Below, piece by piece: positions 1,288 to 7,710 of a stretch of DNA of 37,463 nt. The DNA is from Ferrovibrio sp. (lineage in GTDB: Bacteria; Pseudomonadota; Alphaproteobacteria; Ferrovibrionales; Ferrovibrionaceae). Under the pieces are notes generated by a model. That model ran no database searches. It had not been told where the DNA came from and saw only the letters and a list, made by a program, of their open reading frames with translations. Position numbers and translations under genes: made by a program. Numbering within the stretch: the first letter of the stretch is position 1; each line of letters opens with the position of its first letter. Where the stretch lies: the NCBI RefSeq assembly GCF_029255545.1, contig NZ_JANLJJ010000025.1, positions 1-37,463 of the forward strand, in the 5' to 3' direction.

Positions 1288-3762
1288 TTACGTGCCTTCT
1301 GCGGCGATGGCGGCCAATTCCTGGCGCAGGTCTGCGATCAGGTTGCGACTGACCGCCAGATTGGCCGCCTCGCGGTCGAGTACCAGGGTAAAAGCCTTCA
1401 GTTTAAGCGTCTTGCGGTCGACCAGATCGTCCTTGTCTCGACCCAGGGCGGAATCGCAGACGATGTCGATCAGGCGATCGATGGCATGCAGCCGGCCCCA
1501 GAGATAATCATTCTCGCGATGGGCGCGGCTGAAGAAACCGCCAAAACGGCCAAGATTGACGCCTTTCAGCGTGTTGCCGCGGCGGACCGTCACGGCATCC
1601 TCCGGGCTGATGCGGTCAATCTTGATCTCGTTGAATTCCCCGAGGTCGCGCCAGTTGGTGATGGTGAAGGTCAGAACGTCCCAGAACGGAAAGCCAATAT
1701 AACTGACCAGCAGGTCACGCCGCGCCGCCGGGCTCCAGTCTTCCGGCGCCAGCTGGGCAAACAGGGCATCGAGTCCGTCGGTAGTGCGGTCGAGGTCGAT
1801 GTCGCGCCCGAGGCTGTCGATCAGGCCGTCGATGGCGGCGAGGTTCGCGCCGGCAAAAGCGATGGCATCCTGCTCGATATGCTCGGCCTGCTGCAGGTCG
1901 ATGCGGCGGAAGAACAGCGTCTTGGTTTTCTCTTTGGTCTCTGCGGCAATACCATTGCCGCCATCGAAACGGCGCAGGGCTTCCTGTGCTTCATACAAGG
2001 CCCGTTTCATGCCATCCAGCGTCTCGGCCTGCAGGCCGCGATGCTCGGTATCGCCCAGTTTGCCGTATAACTGGTTCAGCCTCTGCACCAGGAAACGAAC
2101 GCGGCGCTGGCGGAACGAGATGTCGAAGCGCAGCAGAAAACGCACCCAGGCCGGCAGCGCATGCGTCGGCGTGCCGGGCGGCGCGCGTTCGAACCGGGTG
2201 GCGGTATGACAAACCTGCCGGTCCTGCGCCCAGTGCAGCAGGGCGCGGCGCGTCCACTGAGCTTCGGCTGAACGCTCACCATAGCCACAGGCATTACAGA
2301 CCAGCTTGCCGACAAAATCGAGCACGGCGCCGAGCTTCAGGCGCACATAGCCCTCATAGGCAAAGCCGGCTTCGCGCACGGCGCGGTCGCTGGCCTGCAT
2401 GCGCCAGAGCCGGATTTCGCTTTCGCTTAAGGCGGCATCTAGGTTTTGCGGCGCACTTTCGGCCACCAGCTGGGCGATCTGCGGCTGGGTAGCGTCGATC
2501 ACGCCACGCAGGTGGCGCACGCGTTCATTGAAGCGGCTGACCCAGATCAGTTCGTCGGCAATCGGCTCGTTACGCGGAATGTCACTCAGCGCGCCTTTCA
2601 GCACGCGGAAAAAGCCCGGCACGCGGCCGGTCGGCGGCGGCGGCGGTCGCATCGGCTGTGGATCGATGTAAACCAGGCGGCGGTCGACCTCGCGGTAGGC
2701 CGGCCGGCCACGGATCGCTTTCATGGCGGCTGCGAACGGCTTGTTGGCCAGTACGCCGCCATCGACGAAGGAGGTCAGTTCCGGATCGAGGCCGGCTTTC
2801 AGGTAATCGGCGAAATTGCGCTGCACGAAACCGGCCTTGCTGTCCCAGTGCCGACCCTGTTCGGTCAGCAGACGATCAACATCACCCAACTGGGCAGGCG
2901 GGAAGGCACCCGGAAAAGCCGAGGTGGCGCGGCCGGCAAAGGCCAAGCCGGGCGCTTCGACACGGGTAAAGTCGGACTGTTCCTCGCCACCCGACCAGCG
3001 GCGATAGGCAAAGCGCAGCACATGGCGGTGCTCGCGATCGCGGATGAATGGCGGATCGTGAATCTGGATATGTTGTTGGAAGCCGTAGAAATCCGTCAGC
3101 GTGACCAGCAGGTCGAGCGCCAGATTGGTCGGCATCAGCGAAGCGCCCGGATGATCCGGTTCCCCCATCGCTTCGAGGCCGGCGAGCAATTGACGCAGCA
3201 GATGCTGGCCGTCAAAGGGCGGCTGGAACCAACGTGAGCGGGTGAACAGGGAAAGCTTGTCGAGGATTTCCGCATCGCCCAGCATCAGTCGGCCAAAGCG
3301 TGAGCGCGAGGCCAGCCACAACACCGGTCGCATATAGGCCTTGCTCCACGGATTGGCGCGTTTCTCGGGATCGAGCAGGCGCGAGACATCGGCCTCATTG
3401 AGCCAGAGGTTGCGGAAATGGTCGATGCGCAGGTCATGCGCCAGGGCGCGACCGAGGATGATGCCGTTGATGCCGCCGGCCGAGGCGCCGGCAATCACGT
3501 CCACCACCACGCGCAGGTCGACATGCTTGCCCAATTCCTGCAGCAGCTCGAAATAGGCATGCTCGCTGTCGTATTCGGTGTCGCCGGGCCGGATATTGTC
3601 GGCAAAGCGCGCGGTATCGCGGGCGGCGCCCTTGGGCTGGGCATGATAGGCGCGCGAGGCGCGTACCAGCTTGAGAATTTCCTTCACCACGCCATGCATG
3701 TAGATGGCAAGCGACACGCCACCGAAGCAGACCAGAGCGAGGCGTAGTTCTTTTTCCTGCAA
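1288..3762 (-). CDS. Patatin-like phospholipase (large, DUF3376-type patatin-related protein)
   Basis: Predicted acyl hydrolase using a patatin Ser-Asp dyad. The core is obvious: oxyanion-type CFGGVSLAIYMHGV at the N-terminus, nucleophile elbow GASAGG with Ser94, and DGG with Asp334 in FVDGGVLANKPF. After the patatin domain come about 450 residues without a familiar motif, as in the long 'patatin-related protein' family that carries a DUF3376 tail (about 820 aa here). I prefer the TTG at 3762 because GGGGGA lies about 9 nt upstream and the patatin domain begins directly after it. A longer frame opens with TTG at 3849, overlapping the stop of the preceding hydrolase as TTGA, which could allow translational coupling but has no Shine-Dalgarno. 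No signal peptide or membrane segment is visible, so it is probably cytosolic. The natural lipid substrate is unknown. Confidence 0.88.
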   Translation of the reverse strand: MQEKELRLALVCFGGVSLAIYMHGVVKEILKLVRASRAYHAQPKGAARDTARFADNIRPGDTEYDSEHAYFELLQELGKHVDLRVVVDVIAGASAGGINGIILGRALAHDLRIDHFRNLWLNEADVSRLLDPEKRANPWSKAYMRPVLWLASRSRFGRLMLGDAEILDKLSLFTRSRWFQPPFDGQHLLRQLLAGLEAMGEPDHPGASLMPTNLALDLLVTLTDFYGFQQHIQIHDPPFIRDREHRHVLRFAYRRWSGGEEQSDFTRVEAPGLAFAGRATSAFPGAFPPAQLGDVDRLLTEQGRHWDSKAGFVQRNFADYLKAGLDPELTSFVDGGVLANKPFAAAMKAIRGRPAYREVDRRLVYIDPQPMRPPPPPTGRVPGFFRVLKGALSDIPRNEPIADELIWVSRFNERVRHLRGVIDATQPQIAQLVAESAPQNLDAALSESEIRLWRMQASDRAVREAGFAYEGYVRLKLGAVLDFVGKLVCNACGYGERSAEAQWTRRALLHWAQDRQVCHTATRFERAPPGTPTHALPAWVRFLLRFDISFRQRRVRFLVQRLNQLYGKLGDTEHRGLQAETLDGMKRALYEAQEALRRFDGGNGIAAETKEKTKTLFFRRIDLQQAEHIEQDAIAFAGANLAAIDGLIDSLGRDIDLDRTTDGLDALFAQLAPEDWSPAARRDLLVSYIGFPFWDVLTFTITNWRDLGEFNEIKIDRISPEDAVTVRRGNTLKGVNLGRFGGFFSRAHRENDYLWGRLHAIDRLIDIVCDSALGRDKDDLVDRKTLKLKAFTLVLDREAANLAVSRNLIADLRQELAAIAAEGT

Positions 3763-3845
3763 GTGGATATTTCCCCCGAGCGGTCTTTGGCGCGGTCCTG
3801 AAACCGAATCCGCCCGCCTGAGTGTGCCTTGGGCGGGCCTGTCAC

Positions 3846-4808
3846 TCAAGCGGCAGTTGGGTGCAGCAGGCTATCGGCCGCTTCGTCCAGGCAGGCATCG
3901 CCCTCCGGCATCAGGCCGGCGAAGTTGGGCCAGGCATGCGGCAGGCCATGCCACAGTCGCAAGCGGGTCGATATGCCGGCTGCGTGGGCCCGCTCGGCCA
4001 GCCGCAATGTATCGTCGCGCAGCAGTTCGCTGTCACTGACATGCAGCACCAGCGGCGGCAGGCCGGCAAGATCACCATAGAGTGGCGATAGCAGGGGGTC
4101 GTTTTTTGCGGTCTCGCCAGCATAGAGGTCGGCGGCGAAGCGAATCTGGGTCGGCATGAACCAGGCGCAGCGCTCGATATTTTCGGTGAATGCCGCGCCG
4201 CTACAGGCCAGATCCGTCCAAGGCGAGAACAACGCGGCGGCGGCAGGTAGCGGCAGATTCTGCTGCCTGCAGGCCAGCATCAGCGCCAGCGCCAAGCCGC
4301 CGCCAGCGGAATCGCCAGCCAGCCAGATGCGGTCGGGCCGATAGCCTTCGACCAGCAACCAGCGCCAGGCCCGCAGCGCATCTTCCAGCGCGGCCGGGTA
4401 GGGATGCTCCGGGGCCAACCGGTAATCGAGGGCGAAGACCGCGACCCCAAGCCGCCGGGCCAGCCTGGCCGTGATGGCGCGGTGGGTGCGGGGGGCGCCG
4501 CAGATATAACCGCCGCCATGAAGATAGAGCAGGGCGCGACCGCGGCGGGGCTTGTCGGGACGCAGCCACTCGCCGCGCAGCCAGTCGCCGTCCTGCATCA
4601 GCTTGATACGTTCGGCCTTCACCCCGGCCGGCAGCCGGGAACGGGTGAAGGCGAACATTAGGCCGCGCAGCAGCGGAATATCCATGCGGGTGATTTTTCT
4701 CGGTTTGACCAGCCGGCGCAGGCCGCGCGCGATCAGCCGGGCCTGCAGGCTGGGCGTATCGTGCAAATGGCCATGGCGGTGACCGACACTGGGGTGGCGA
4801 CGCAGCAT
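3846..4808 (-). CDS. Alpha/beta hydrolase, hormone-sensitive-lipase (HSL) family
   Basis: Predicted carboxylesterase/lipase of 320 aa. It has the HSL oxyanion motif HGGGY at 97-101, the nucleophile elbow GDSAGG with Ser167, a likely catalytic Asp265 in ELLRDD and His291 in HGLPHAWPNF. That is a complete triad and typical length. The first 50 residues are a basic helical cap region without a signal peptide. It lies just upstream of the patatin-like gene on the same strand; depending on the patatin start the two are separated by 83 nt or overlap by 4 nt, so they are probably one lipolytic operon. It is divergent from ribA, with starts about 100 nt apart. Substrate preference (short-chain esters are usual for the family) is inference. 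Confidence 0.88.
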   Translation of the reverse strand: MLRRHPSVGHRHGHLHDTPSLQARLIARGLRRLVKPRKITRMDIPLLRGLMFAFTRSRLPAGVKAERIKLMQDGDWLRGEWLRPDKPRRGRALLYLHGGGYICGAPRTHRAITARLARRLGVAVFALDYRLAPEHPYPAALEDALRAWRWLLVEGYRPDRIWLAGDSAGGGLALALMLACRQQNLPLPAAAALFSPWTDLACSGAAFTENIERCAWFMPTQIRFAADLYAGETAKNDPLLSPLYGDLAGLPPLVLHVSDSELLRDDTLRLAERAHAAGISTRLRLWHGLPHAWPNFAGLMPEGDACLDEAADSLLHPTAA

Positions 4809-4905
4809 GCCGCGACCTTAGCCAGCCGTGCCGGCCGTCACAACCTTGCGTAAAGCGGCGCGGCATCTTGCCGGGGCGGGCCGGGCGTCGTACACCGAAC
4901 CGGCT

Positions 4906-6018
4906 ATGACAGAGCTTTCCCATGCCGCTGCCGCCATCGCAGTCGACCGTGCCGGGCACGAATTGCGCCGCGGCCGGCCGGTGCTGCTGGCGATGAACAA
5001 TGCCGAGCGGATTCTGGTGCTGGCCGCCGAGACCCTGACCGAGGCGGTACTGGCCGATGTGACGCGCCTGAGCGGTGAGGGCGCGCTGGCGCTGACCGCT
5101 TCGCGGGCGGCCGTACTGCATATCGGCCCCACCGGGCACGATACCATTCTGCTACCGCTGGCCGACCTGCCGGCCAGTGATAATGAAAAGGCCGCTTTGA
5201 TTCGTGATCTGGCCGATGCCAGTCGCGACCTGGCAGCGCCTTTGCGCGGACCATTTACCCGGATCAAGGCCGCTCCGCCCGAGAGCGCGCGGCTGGCGGT
5301 GAAGCTGGCCAAGACCGCCTATCTGCTACCGGCTGCCATGCATCTGCCGCTGCAACACGATGTCGTGCTTCCAGCCGATCTGCTGGCTGTCTCGGCTGAG
5401 GCGGTGGCCACCTATGACCTGGCCGAAGCGGAAACCCTGGTACCGGTCAGCCAGGCGCGCCTGCCGGTCGCCGATGCCGAGAATGCACGGCTGTATGCAT
5501 TCCGCCCGGCCGATGGCCGGCAGGAGCATTTCGCCCTGGTAATCGGCGATCCCGATCCGACAAAGCCGGTACTGACGCGGCTGCATTCGGAATGCTTCAC
5601 CGGCGACCTGCTGGGCTCGCTGCGCTGCGATTGCGGTGAGCAGCTGCGCGGTGCCATCCGCACTATCGACGAGGCCGGCGGTGGCGTGCTGCTCTACCTG
5701 GCGCAGGAGGGCCGTGGCATCGGCCTGGTCAACAAGCTGCGTGCCTATCAGTTGCAGGACCAGGGATTTGACACCGTCGATGCCAACCAGCGGCTCGGGT
5801 TCGATGCCGACGAGCGCTGGTTCCTGCCAGCCGCCCGCATGCTGCAGCGGCTGGGGTTCGGGGCCGTGCGGCTGCTGACCAATAACCCGGAAAAGGTGAC
5901 GGGCCTGGAGGCTTGCGGGATCACCGTGGCCGAGCGCGTGCCGCACAAATTCCCGTCCAACGCCCATAATGAGGCCTATCTGGCCGCCAAGCGCAAACGG
6001 TCCGGGCATTACCTCTGA
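4906..6018 (+). CDS. ribA: GTP cyclohydrolase II with degenerate N-terminal RibB-like domain
   Basis: Converts GTP to 2,5-diamino-6-ribosylamino-4-pyrimidinone 5'-phosphate, the first step of riboflavin synthesis. The C-terminal half is canonical: RLHSECFTGD and LRCDCGEQL supply zinc ligands Cys230, Cys241 and Cys243; YLAQEGRGIGL, DANQRLGF and LLTNNPEK follow. The first ~190 residues look like a remnant of 3,4-dihydroxy-2-butanone-4-phosphate synthase in size and position, starting with a RRGRPVLL stretch, but I do not see the acidic active-site signature (RxEDEGD type). I therefore expect only the cyclohydrolase activity. The ATG at 4906 was chosen because the residues encoded upstream (from 4828) are Ala/Arg-rich filler. 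The product is 370 aa. It appears monocistronic, divergent from the lipase genes. Confidence 0.9.
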   Translation: MTELSHAAAAIAVDRAGHELRRGRPVLLAMNNAERILVLAAETLTEAVLADVTRLSGEGALALTASRAAVLHIGPTGHDTILLPLADLPASDNEKAALIRDLADASRDLAAPLRGPFTRIKAAPPESARLAVKLAKTAYLLPAAMHLPLQHDVVLPADLLAVSAEAVATYDLAEAETLVPVSQARLPVADAENARLYAFRPADGRQEHFALVIGDPDPTKPVLTRLHSECFTGDLLGSLRCDCGEQLRGAIRTIDEAGGGVLLYLAQEGRGIGLVNKLRAYQLQDQGFDTVDANQRLGFDADERWFLPAARMLQRLGFGAVRLLTNNPEKVTGLEACGITVAERVPHKFPSNAHNEAYLAAKRKRSGHYL

Positions 6019-6030
6019 AATCTTGTTTCA

Positions 6031-6049
6031 CCCGGCAGGAATTGCCGGG
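6031..6049. promoter_or_regulatory. Perfect 7-bp dyad, candidate enhancer-binding site (or ribA hairpin)
   Basis: CCCGGCA and TGCCGGG form a perfect inverted repeat separated by 5 nt. Its centre is about 84 bp upstream of the start site predicted from the sigma-54 element at 6097-6112, where enhancer-binding proteins usually bind. It also follows the ribA stop and could act as an RNA hairpin, but there is no T-run after it, so it is not a convincing intrinsic terminator. The activator is unknown. Confidence 0.5.
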
Positions 6050-6096
6050 GGATGGCCAGTTTGGTCTCTAACCTATTGATTTACCAGATCTGATAT

Positions 6097-6112
6097 CTGG
6101 CACGCGGCTTGC
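6097..6112 (+). promoter_or_regulatory. Sigma-54 (-24/-12) promoter
   Basis: The element reads CTGGCACG-N4-TTGC, an essentially exact match to the RpoN consensus TGGCACG-N4-TTGC(A/T); only the last consensus base differs (G). GG and GC are correctly spaced. The implied start site is near 6124, placing a GAGAGGA Shine-Dalgarno at 6125-6131 and the ATG at 6137, so the leader would be about 13 nt. A 6-bp inverted repeat CCAGAT/ATCTGG (6084-6100) overlaps the -24 region. Confidence 0.78.
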
Positions 6113-6136
6113 GATGTCCTGTCCGAGAGGACCCGC

Positions 6137-7159
6137 ATGTCTGATGAAATGACCATTGCCGCGCTCCCGGCTTCCGGGGTGCCGCCCAAACCGCCGGCCA
6201 AGCAGGCCGAGGCGGCGGGCAATGGCGACGGACGCGAGCATCGTGGCCTGTTCGGGCCGGGTGGCTTCAAGTTTTCCGACTTCCTCGACATCATCAACCC
6301 GCTGCAGCACATTCCGATCGTCTCGACCGTCTATCGCGCCCTCACCGGCGACCAGATCGAGGCTGGTTCACGGATGGCCGGCGGTGCGCTGTTCGGCGGC
6401 CCGATCGGTCTGGCCGCTTCGGTGGTCAGCGCGATGATCAATGAAGGCACCGGCAAGGATCCAGGCGAGCATGCCATGGCGATGCTCGGGATCGACCTGG
6501 GCGGCCAGGATCAGCCGGCCACCGCCATTGCCGCGAACACGCCAGGCGATGCCGACCGTGTGGTGCAGAATGCCACGCAGCAGCAGGCAGCCCAGCAGCA
6601 GGCAGCCTTTGTGCAGGCGCAGATGCAGGCAGCGCGGCCGGACCTGAGACTGGCGGCAAAAATTGATGATACACGCAGCGAGCGTCGACCCGCGGCACAG
6701 GACAAGCCGTCCGATGCGAAATCCGCCATTGAGCTTCCCAGTGATCTGTTCCAGGCCCTGAAGCAGCAGGCTCCGGCGCAGGCCGCACCGGCCGGTCCGG
6801 CAGCGGAAGCTATCATGGCGGCCCAGGCGCGCAATCCGGCAACTGCATCGCGTGGTCGTGCGCAGCCGGCGGCAGTCACGGCGCCGGAAATGATCGATGG
6901 CAGGCCTTGGTTTCCGGCTTTCCCCACCAACGCGCCGGCGTCTGGCCGCAGCGTCGGTACCTCGCCGGTCACACAGCAGAACGTCGCGGCGAAATATGGT
7001 GCCAGGACCGCGCCGCAGCACGCGGCTTCGCATGCTGAGATCCAGTCGTCCGCCGACTGGGCCAGTCGCGCCGCCGAGGCCTATCAAAAATATTTTGACA
7101 TGCAGCAGCAGCGCGACCGCCAGCGCGGCATGCAACCCGCGCTGGATGCCACCTACTGA
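6137..7159 (+). CDS. Unknown Ala/Gln/Pro-rich protein behind a sigma-54 promoter
   Basis: I do not recognise a named family for this 340-aa protein. It has three parts. Residues 1-35 are Pro/Ala-rich and disordered. Residues about 37-125 form the most ordered segment: FGPGGFKFSDFLDIINPLQHIPIVSTVYRAL, then a Gly/Ala-rich hydrophobic stretch (AGGALFGGPIGLAASVVSAMI) and GKDPGEHAMAMLGID, which I believe recurs in other alphaproteobacterial hypothetical proteins. The rest is low-complexity, rich in Gln and Ala (QQQAAQQQAA near 149), ending with a helical AAEAYQKYFDMQQQRDRQR tail. There is no signal peptide, but the Gly/Ala stretch could insert into or contact a membrane. A strong GAGAGGA ribosome-binding site supports this start. 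RpoN control often marks motility or nitrogen genes, but function here is unknown. Confidence 0.8.
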   Translation: MSDEMTIAALPASGVPPKPPAKQAEAAGNGDGREHRGLFGPGGFKFSDFLDIINPLQHIPIVSTVYRALTGDQIEAGSRMAGGALFGGPIGLAASVVSAMINEGTGKDPGEHAMAMLGIDLGGQDQPATAIAANTPGDADRVVQNATQQQAAQQQAAFVQAQMQAARPDLRLAAKIDDTRSERRPAAQDKPSDAKSAIELPSDLFQALKQQAPAQAAPAGPAAEAIMAAQARNPATASRGRAQPAAVTAPEMIDGRPWFPAFPTNAPASGRSVGTSPVTQQNVAAKYGARTAPQHAASHAEIQSSADWASRAAEAYQKYFDMQQQRDRQRGMQPALDATY

Positions 7160-7197: not shown

Positions 7198-7710
7198 ATG
7201 AGCGACATCATCGTCACATCGGATGGTTTCCTGAGGTATGGCGGCCTACGGTTCCGCTGCGCGCTGGGCAAGGGTGGTATGAAGCCCGAAGCCGACAAAC
7301 GCGAGGGCGATGGCGCCACGCCGCTTGGCCGCTACGCCCTGCGTCAGGTTTATTATCGTGCCGATCGACTTGCCGTTCCGGAAACGCGGTTGCCGATCCA
7401 GCCGCTGACGCGGCAGGATGGCTGGTGCGACGATCCCGCCGAGACCGCCTATAACCGCCATGTGCTGCTGCCATATGCTGCCAGCCATGAAAAACTCTGG
7501 CGCGAGGACCATGTCTACGACGTGATCGTGGTACTGGGGCATAACGACGATCCACCCGTGCCCGGCATGGGTAGTGCAATTTTCCTGCATCTGGCGCGAC
7601 CGGATTACAGCGGCACCGAAGGTTGCGTCGCGCTGGCCCTACCGGATCTGCTGGCGCTGCTGGCCGTGCTGCCGCCTAACGCGGCGATGCAGATCATCAG
7701 TGCGGATTGA
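7198..7710 (+). CDS. L,D-transpeptidase-like YkuD-domain protein
   Basis: Predicted cysteine transpeptidase fold that cross-links or modifies peptidoglycan stem peptides. The 170-aa product is almost all catalytic domain. The YkuD signature is present: FLHLARPDYSGTEGCVAL with His131 and Cys143, preceded by GDGATPLGRYALRQVYYRAD and VVLGHNDDPPVPGMGSAIF. I chose the ATG at 7198 over a TTG 18 nt upstream; neither has a strong Shine-Dalgarno. No signal peptide or transmembrane segment is visible, which is odd for an enzyme acting in the periplasm. This short, leaderless form is nevertheless common among proteobacterial YkuD proteins. It follows the unknown gene by 38 nt and could be read from the same sigma-54 promoter. 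Confidence 0.85.
   Translation: MSDIIVTSDGFLRYGGLRFRCALGKGGMKPEADKREGDGATPLGRYALRQVYYRADRLAVPETRLPIQPLTRQDGWCDDPAETAYNRHVLLPYAASHEKLWREDHVYDVIVVLGHNDDPPVPGMGSAIFLHLARPDYSGTEGCVALALPDLLALLAVLPPNAAMQIISAD

Follow-up and report, generated by a model that had tools for sequence, protein, structure and literature searches.

The window analysed here, a stretch of 37,463 nucleotides on a contig of Ferrovibrio sp., contains a gene for a 340-aa protein which the original prediction placed behind a sigma-54 promoter and an enhancer-like dyad. This raises the question of which regulon the gene belongs to and what its product may do. The features of the locus are as follows (coordinates in the window).

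4828..6018, + strand: ribA-like gene (GTP cyclohydrolase II; PF00925, 9e-60), the upstream neighbour
6031..6049, no strand assigned: dyad CCCGGCA-N5-TGCCGGG, a probable FlbD (ftr-type) enhancer (0 mismatches)
6069..6080, + strand: IHF-like site TAACCTATTGAT, between the dyad and the sigma-54 element, matching the reversed IHF consensus
6097..6112, + strand: sigma-54 -24/-12 promoter element (exact match; expected start near 6124)
6137..7159, + strand: 340-aa protein of an unnamed alphaproteobacterial family with homologues across the class
6248..6511, + strand: conserved helical domain (F-DFLDIINPLQHIP..YR..TGD...GG.LFGG.IG...TGKD; alignment A1), predicted to be all-helical with low confidence
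7046..7123, + strand: C-terminal helix, the sole confidently predicted segment (pLDDT ~78-80 around residues 311-330)
7198..7710, + strand: YkuD-domain (L,D-transpeptidase) gene (PF03734, 6e-14), the downstream neighbour

The sequence TGGCACG-N4-TTGC is present without mismatches at 6098-6112, which was the sole exact match found in the window by the pattern scan and is one of 8 exact sigma-54 matches genome-wide. The element proposed at 6097-6112 thus has GG and GC at the set spacing, and the promoter is predicted to be of the sigma-54 type. The dyad consists of 7-bp arms and a 5-bp spacer and is found as one exact copy in the window, where versions with three mismatches occur at chance level. 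Its centre (6040) lies 84 bp before the expected start (~6124), as had been stated, and the placement of this start right at the ribosome-binding site also agrees with the sequence: the leader of the gene is ~13 nt long and carries GAGAGGA (6124-6130) at its 5' end. The IHF-like site at 6069-6080 had been missed. The call of TAACCTATTGAT relies on what we take to be the IHF consensus, and the ftr-type label of the dyad on what we take to be the published ftr consensus.

Homologues of the 340-aa protein were identified in 36 of 61 relatives and in 162 of 387 genomes of the class (24 genomes being common to both sets), and 95 upstream regions from these ~174 gene-bearing genomes were examined, using our own sigma-54 weights and thresholds, based on the consensus. 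The set does not include G009 and G283; the site of G009 (score 0.9) was seen separately. The sigma-54 score reached 0.85 or more in 89 of the 95 regions, i.e. in 58 of 64 and 31 of 31 regions from genomes in which FliF was and was not found, respectively. GG and the G of the -12 element are present in all 89 sites, and the C of the -12 element in 88. The six regions scoring below 0.85 are all among the 64 FliF-positive ones, and the low score of one (G054) is a search artefact, a separate look giving a site of 0.99. The dyad matches at 8 or more of 10 positions in 84/95 regions (56/64 FliF-positive and 28/31 FliF-not-found), usually 57-61 bp before the -24 element, and beats its own shuffles at 0.05 in 75/95 (52/64 and 23/31, respectively). 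The IHF-like pattern YAANNNNYTGAW was found in 37 of the 95 regions (shuffles: mean 0.5, maximum 3) and in the opposite orientation in five. The original prediction had been made dependent on conservation of the promoter among orthologues, and it survives this comparison because the -24/-12 element and the dyad are kept in relatives. The short dyad occurs 51 times genome-wide against 37 times for its reversed control, and either motif alone could be a chance match in a GC-rich genome; the two together, kept across the class, are not chance, judging by these upstream regions.

To which regulon does such a promoter belong? The window's own genome contains 51 short dyads, of which 50 were examined over a range of +-400 (one duplicate locus was dropped). 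Eleven of these have a correctly oriented sigma-54 site at +45 to +125, against six sites over the remaining ~719 offsets. The genes behind these promoters are flgI, flgF, flgE (twice), a gene for a GGDEF protein and the 340-aa gene; at four promoters, the nearest reading frame has no family match. The genome-wide scan therefore bears out the suspicion that the unit is shared with flagellar genes, the enhancer of the 340-aa gene being common to the flgI, flgF and both flgE promoters. The genome also encodes RpoN and FliX, the start of fliX adjoining the flgI dyad, and between fliN and flhA lies the gene for an activator of 456 aa that combines a Sigma54_activat domain with a Fis-type HTH and whose receiver domain is weak (below the Pfam cut-off). 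This activator is FlbD-like and lies where flbD would be expected; the name FlbD rests on its position and domains. According to a review, FlbD binds ftr motifs and is under FliX control, apparently not by phosphorylation (excerpts of PMC3930126).

In relatives, a strict version of the dyad and sigma-54 pattern, allowing gaps of 46-76 bases only, heads flgE (G003, twice, and G006), flgK (G057) and fliK (G031); over 21 genomes, 49 real matches were obtained versus 14 reversed-control matches. Of the two regulons that had been suggested, nitrogen or flagellar, the flagellar (FlbD) one is supported by the shared enhancer, FliX, RpoN and the FlbD-like activator, whereas the nitrogen regulon was rejected, as none of the dyad-linked genes suggested nitrogen. 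The arrangement resembles the FlbD/FliX promoters of Caulobacter crescentus, which have in common with it the sigma-54 core, the enhancer-like dyad and the IHF-like site between them, as well as FliX and FlbD-like regulators and hook and ring co-targets (excerpts of PMC3930126). Unlike in the ftr system of C. crescentus, the 340-aa gene lies outside flagellar clusters in this genome and its product is undescribed.

Several other loci emerged from these scans. In the window's own genome, G000, which contains two or more complete flgE genes, an exact sigma-54 site and an exact dyad, 59 bp apart, precede a gene whose 173-aa product matches no known family (L092/L297, G000:C48:12409-12488); by its promoter, this gene is predicted to be another unnamed member of the FlbD/sigma-54 regulon. 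At G000:C70:20808-20931 (L104), an EF-hand gene follows an exact dyad and a sigma-54 site that is near-consensus but poorer. At L108 (G000:C82:38517-38830), a single dyad lies between flgE and a shorter, divergent flgE-like gene of 285 aa, and both genes have a sigma-54 site of their own. A possible downstream enhancer was noted at L070 (G000:C22:45919-45933), where a 229-aa gene without a known family contains an exact dyad ~331 bp past a sigma-54 site. L070 and L117 are the same place, as are L034 and L061.

In the window, the 340-aa gene lies between ribA and ykuD, away from flagellar genes. In 31 of 48 neighbourhoods, a same-strand ribA precedes the gene. The YkuD-like gene does follow by 38 nt (start at 7198 after 7159), but the view that the pair forms one regulon unit is weakly supported: YkuD is downstream on the same strand in 28/48 neighbourhoods, often several hundred bp off. 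It was dropped as an obligate operon partner. The gene at 1288-3849 (- strand), beyond ribA, encodes a patatin-like protein of 853 aa that includes a DUF3376 region; it is conserved beside ribA in close relatives.

A physical link to flagella was found in paralogues. In plasmid-borne lateral-flagella clusters of Azospirillum, a shorter paralogue starts within the last codons of fliI, overlapping it by 4 bp in all six records examined (of 11 with a match). These clusters contain flgB- and flgC-type rod genes, with fliE in view in most, and flhA, flhB, fliR, fliQ and flagellin genes were also seen in the two examined with wide flanks (L118 and L119). G379 contains one copy after ribA and a second just after fliI, in a cluster near a second FliF. 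Of the 387 genomes, 131 combine the gene with FliF, 31 have it without FliF, 94 have FliF without the gene and 131 lack both, giving a co-occurrence odds ratio of 5.9 that is uncorrected for phylogeny. FlgI is found in 17 of the 31 gene-only genomes, versus 0 of 25 controls with neither FliF nor the gene; RpoN is encoded in 30 of the 31. No homologue was detectable in 94 of the 225 FliF-bearing genomes; the protein is therefore not a universal flagellar part, and an essential structural component of the flagellum was ruled out on the same grounds.

The protein itself fits the original description of a product without a nameable function: the window protein has no Pfam, NCBIfam, PHROG or PDB match, and the best profile match for 30 aligned family members was a single-member one (E 0.003). 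These 30 homologues have in common a domain of ~85 residues with invariant N54, P55, L56, P60, R67, G82 and G87. The domain includes a glycine-rich hydrophobic stretch that is borderline as a membrane helix (mean best Kyte-Doolittle 1.56), and it is followed by a variable low-complexity linker and then, in many homologues, by a short C-terminal helix. AlphaFold models built on two-row alignments are poor (pLDDT 41.5 for the full length and 55 for the domain, the latter predicted to be all-helical). Because the family has no name, the literature was searched by regulators and systems, and no paper on the gene was found in this way.

Two groups of proteins came close. The Rhodobacterales proteins CP1-CP4 are likewise uncharacterised alphaproteobacterial proteins tied to flagellar assembly, but according to excerpts of PMC12363192 they sit in fla1 clusters and are inferred to have been gained in the Rhodobacterales; on this description, the Phaeobacter CP1-4 proteins were set apart from the 340-aa family. 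The flagellar signalling suppressor (fss) genes and DgcB of Caulobacter are accessory, linking flagellum, stator and c-di-GMP, and here a GGDEF gene has the same type of enhancer and promoter as the 340-aa gene. In excerpts of PMC7885107 and PMC11580411, FssA and FssB carry secretion signals, FssF is FliN-like and the active-site residue of DgcB is 261; judged by these descriptions, the family is none of FssA, FssB and FssF, and the Fss proteins were set apart, whereas DgcB would be longer than the 240-aa GGDEF protein found here.

Taken together, these data point to a gene that probably encodes an accessory factor of late flagellar assembly controlled by FlbD, FliX and sigma-54. Its regulation by FlbD and sigma-54 is strongly supported by the sequence comparisons; the role in late assembly is what we infer. 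The gene would be switched on together with the hook and P-ring genes. Following the Caulobacter model, FliX would free FlbD once the early basal body is in place, the freed FlbD would bind the dyad while IHF loops the DNA, and the sigma-54 polymerase would then start near 6124. The protein may be cytoplasmic or associated with the inner membrane, with the glycine-rich hydrophobic helix as an anchor or oligomerisation element, followed by a disordered Ala/Gln/Pro-rich linker and a C-terminal helix that might bind a partner. Because the paralogue overlaps fliI in the lateral clusters, the export apparatus is the foremost candidate; c-di-GMP signalling comes next, on account of the co-regulated GGDEF gene. 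The latter is not far-fetched, since the Caulobacter diguanylate cyclase DgcB acts with the flagellar stator in surface sensing (excerpts of PMC7885107).

The strongest competing explanation accepts FlbD/sigma-54 control but holds that the job of the protein is non-flagellar: it would belong to a motile-phase or surface-response module with a co-regulated diguanylate cyclase, which flagellates merely time with hook assembly and which persists after the flagellum is lost. We consider this possible, though on balance rather unlikely. FliF, FlgI and FlhA were all undetected in 14 gene-bearing genomes, one of which (G283) retains flgF and fliX on a 9-kb contig, showing that assembly fragmentation can mislead. 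In the remaining 13, the domain and the sigma-54 site are present in 13/13 each and a dyad of at least 8/10 in 12/13 (beating shuffles at 0.05 in 9/13), as the module would predict; however, these genomes are mostly fragmented, and flagellar genes can be missed, as G283 illustrates. FliX matches persist in 5/13, but three are short fragments. One of the five (L250, G226:C7) is of full length, in a genome that is 99% complete and in which none of FliF, FlgI and FlhA was detected; a Pfam scan of three neighbouring frames gave MlaC for one and no match for the others. In four of the 13 genomes (G046, G307, G368 and G402), a dyad and a sigma-54 site also precede a GGDEF gene of ~240 aa, with more than one dyad in G307 and G402, and the same arrangement is found in the flagellate G045 and in the window's own genome. 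The own-genome GGDEF protein is, however, only 36-44% identical to the other five, so that orthology does not follow, and the reversed control of the strict pattern gave 14 matches against 49 real ones over the 21 genomes. Some copies of the gene may moreover be decaying, as conserved residues of the domain are lost in G044 and the frame is short in G368, and the fliI-linked paralogues suggest a flagellar job. The pattern in the 13 genomes may thus reflect either incomplete assemblies together with recent losses or a flagellum-independent role. In two apparently non-flagellate genomes (L293, 3465-5212, and L295, 2254-3971), the GGDEF gene under the dyad and an EipB-like gene point away from each other.

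It is improbable that a different NtrC-type activator, NtrC or NtrX of nitrogen regulation, occupies the enhancer in place of FlbD. Alphaproteobacteria have several such activators, and RpoN occurs in 12 of the 25 control genomes with neither FliF nor the gene; however, most of the dyad-linked genes that can be assigned to a family are flagellar, and FliX and the FlbD-like gene are present. It is very improbable, and was rejected, that the dyad is a transcription terminator of ribA unrelated to the promoter, since, although it begins 12 bp past the ribA stop codon and could form a hairpin, it lacks a T tract, the terminator prediction there is negative, its spacing tracks the promoter (in G003, where ribA ends ~2.2 kb off, it is still 59 bp before the -24 element) and the same dyad heads flagellar promoters elsewhere.

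The accessory-factor reading describes an unnamed family found in 162 of the 387 genomes sampled, with a highly conserved flagellar-type promoter and a main copy outside flagellar clusters; the regulation of the gene predicts when the protein acts, and the fliI-linked paralogues suggest where. A further, more tentative and on present evidence doubtful proposal is that the FlbD-FliX-sigma-54 circuit outlives the flagellum and, in several flagellum-less lineages, drives a 340-aa-family protein and a diguanylate cyclase. Were this so, both proteins would represent an ancient output of the circuit that does not depend on the flagellum, e.g. a c-di-GMP module of the membrane or cell pole, which flagellates would couple to hook completion. 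The apparent survival of the gene after flagellum loss offers a direct route to any roles of FlbD and FliX beyond flagella.
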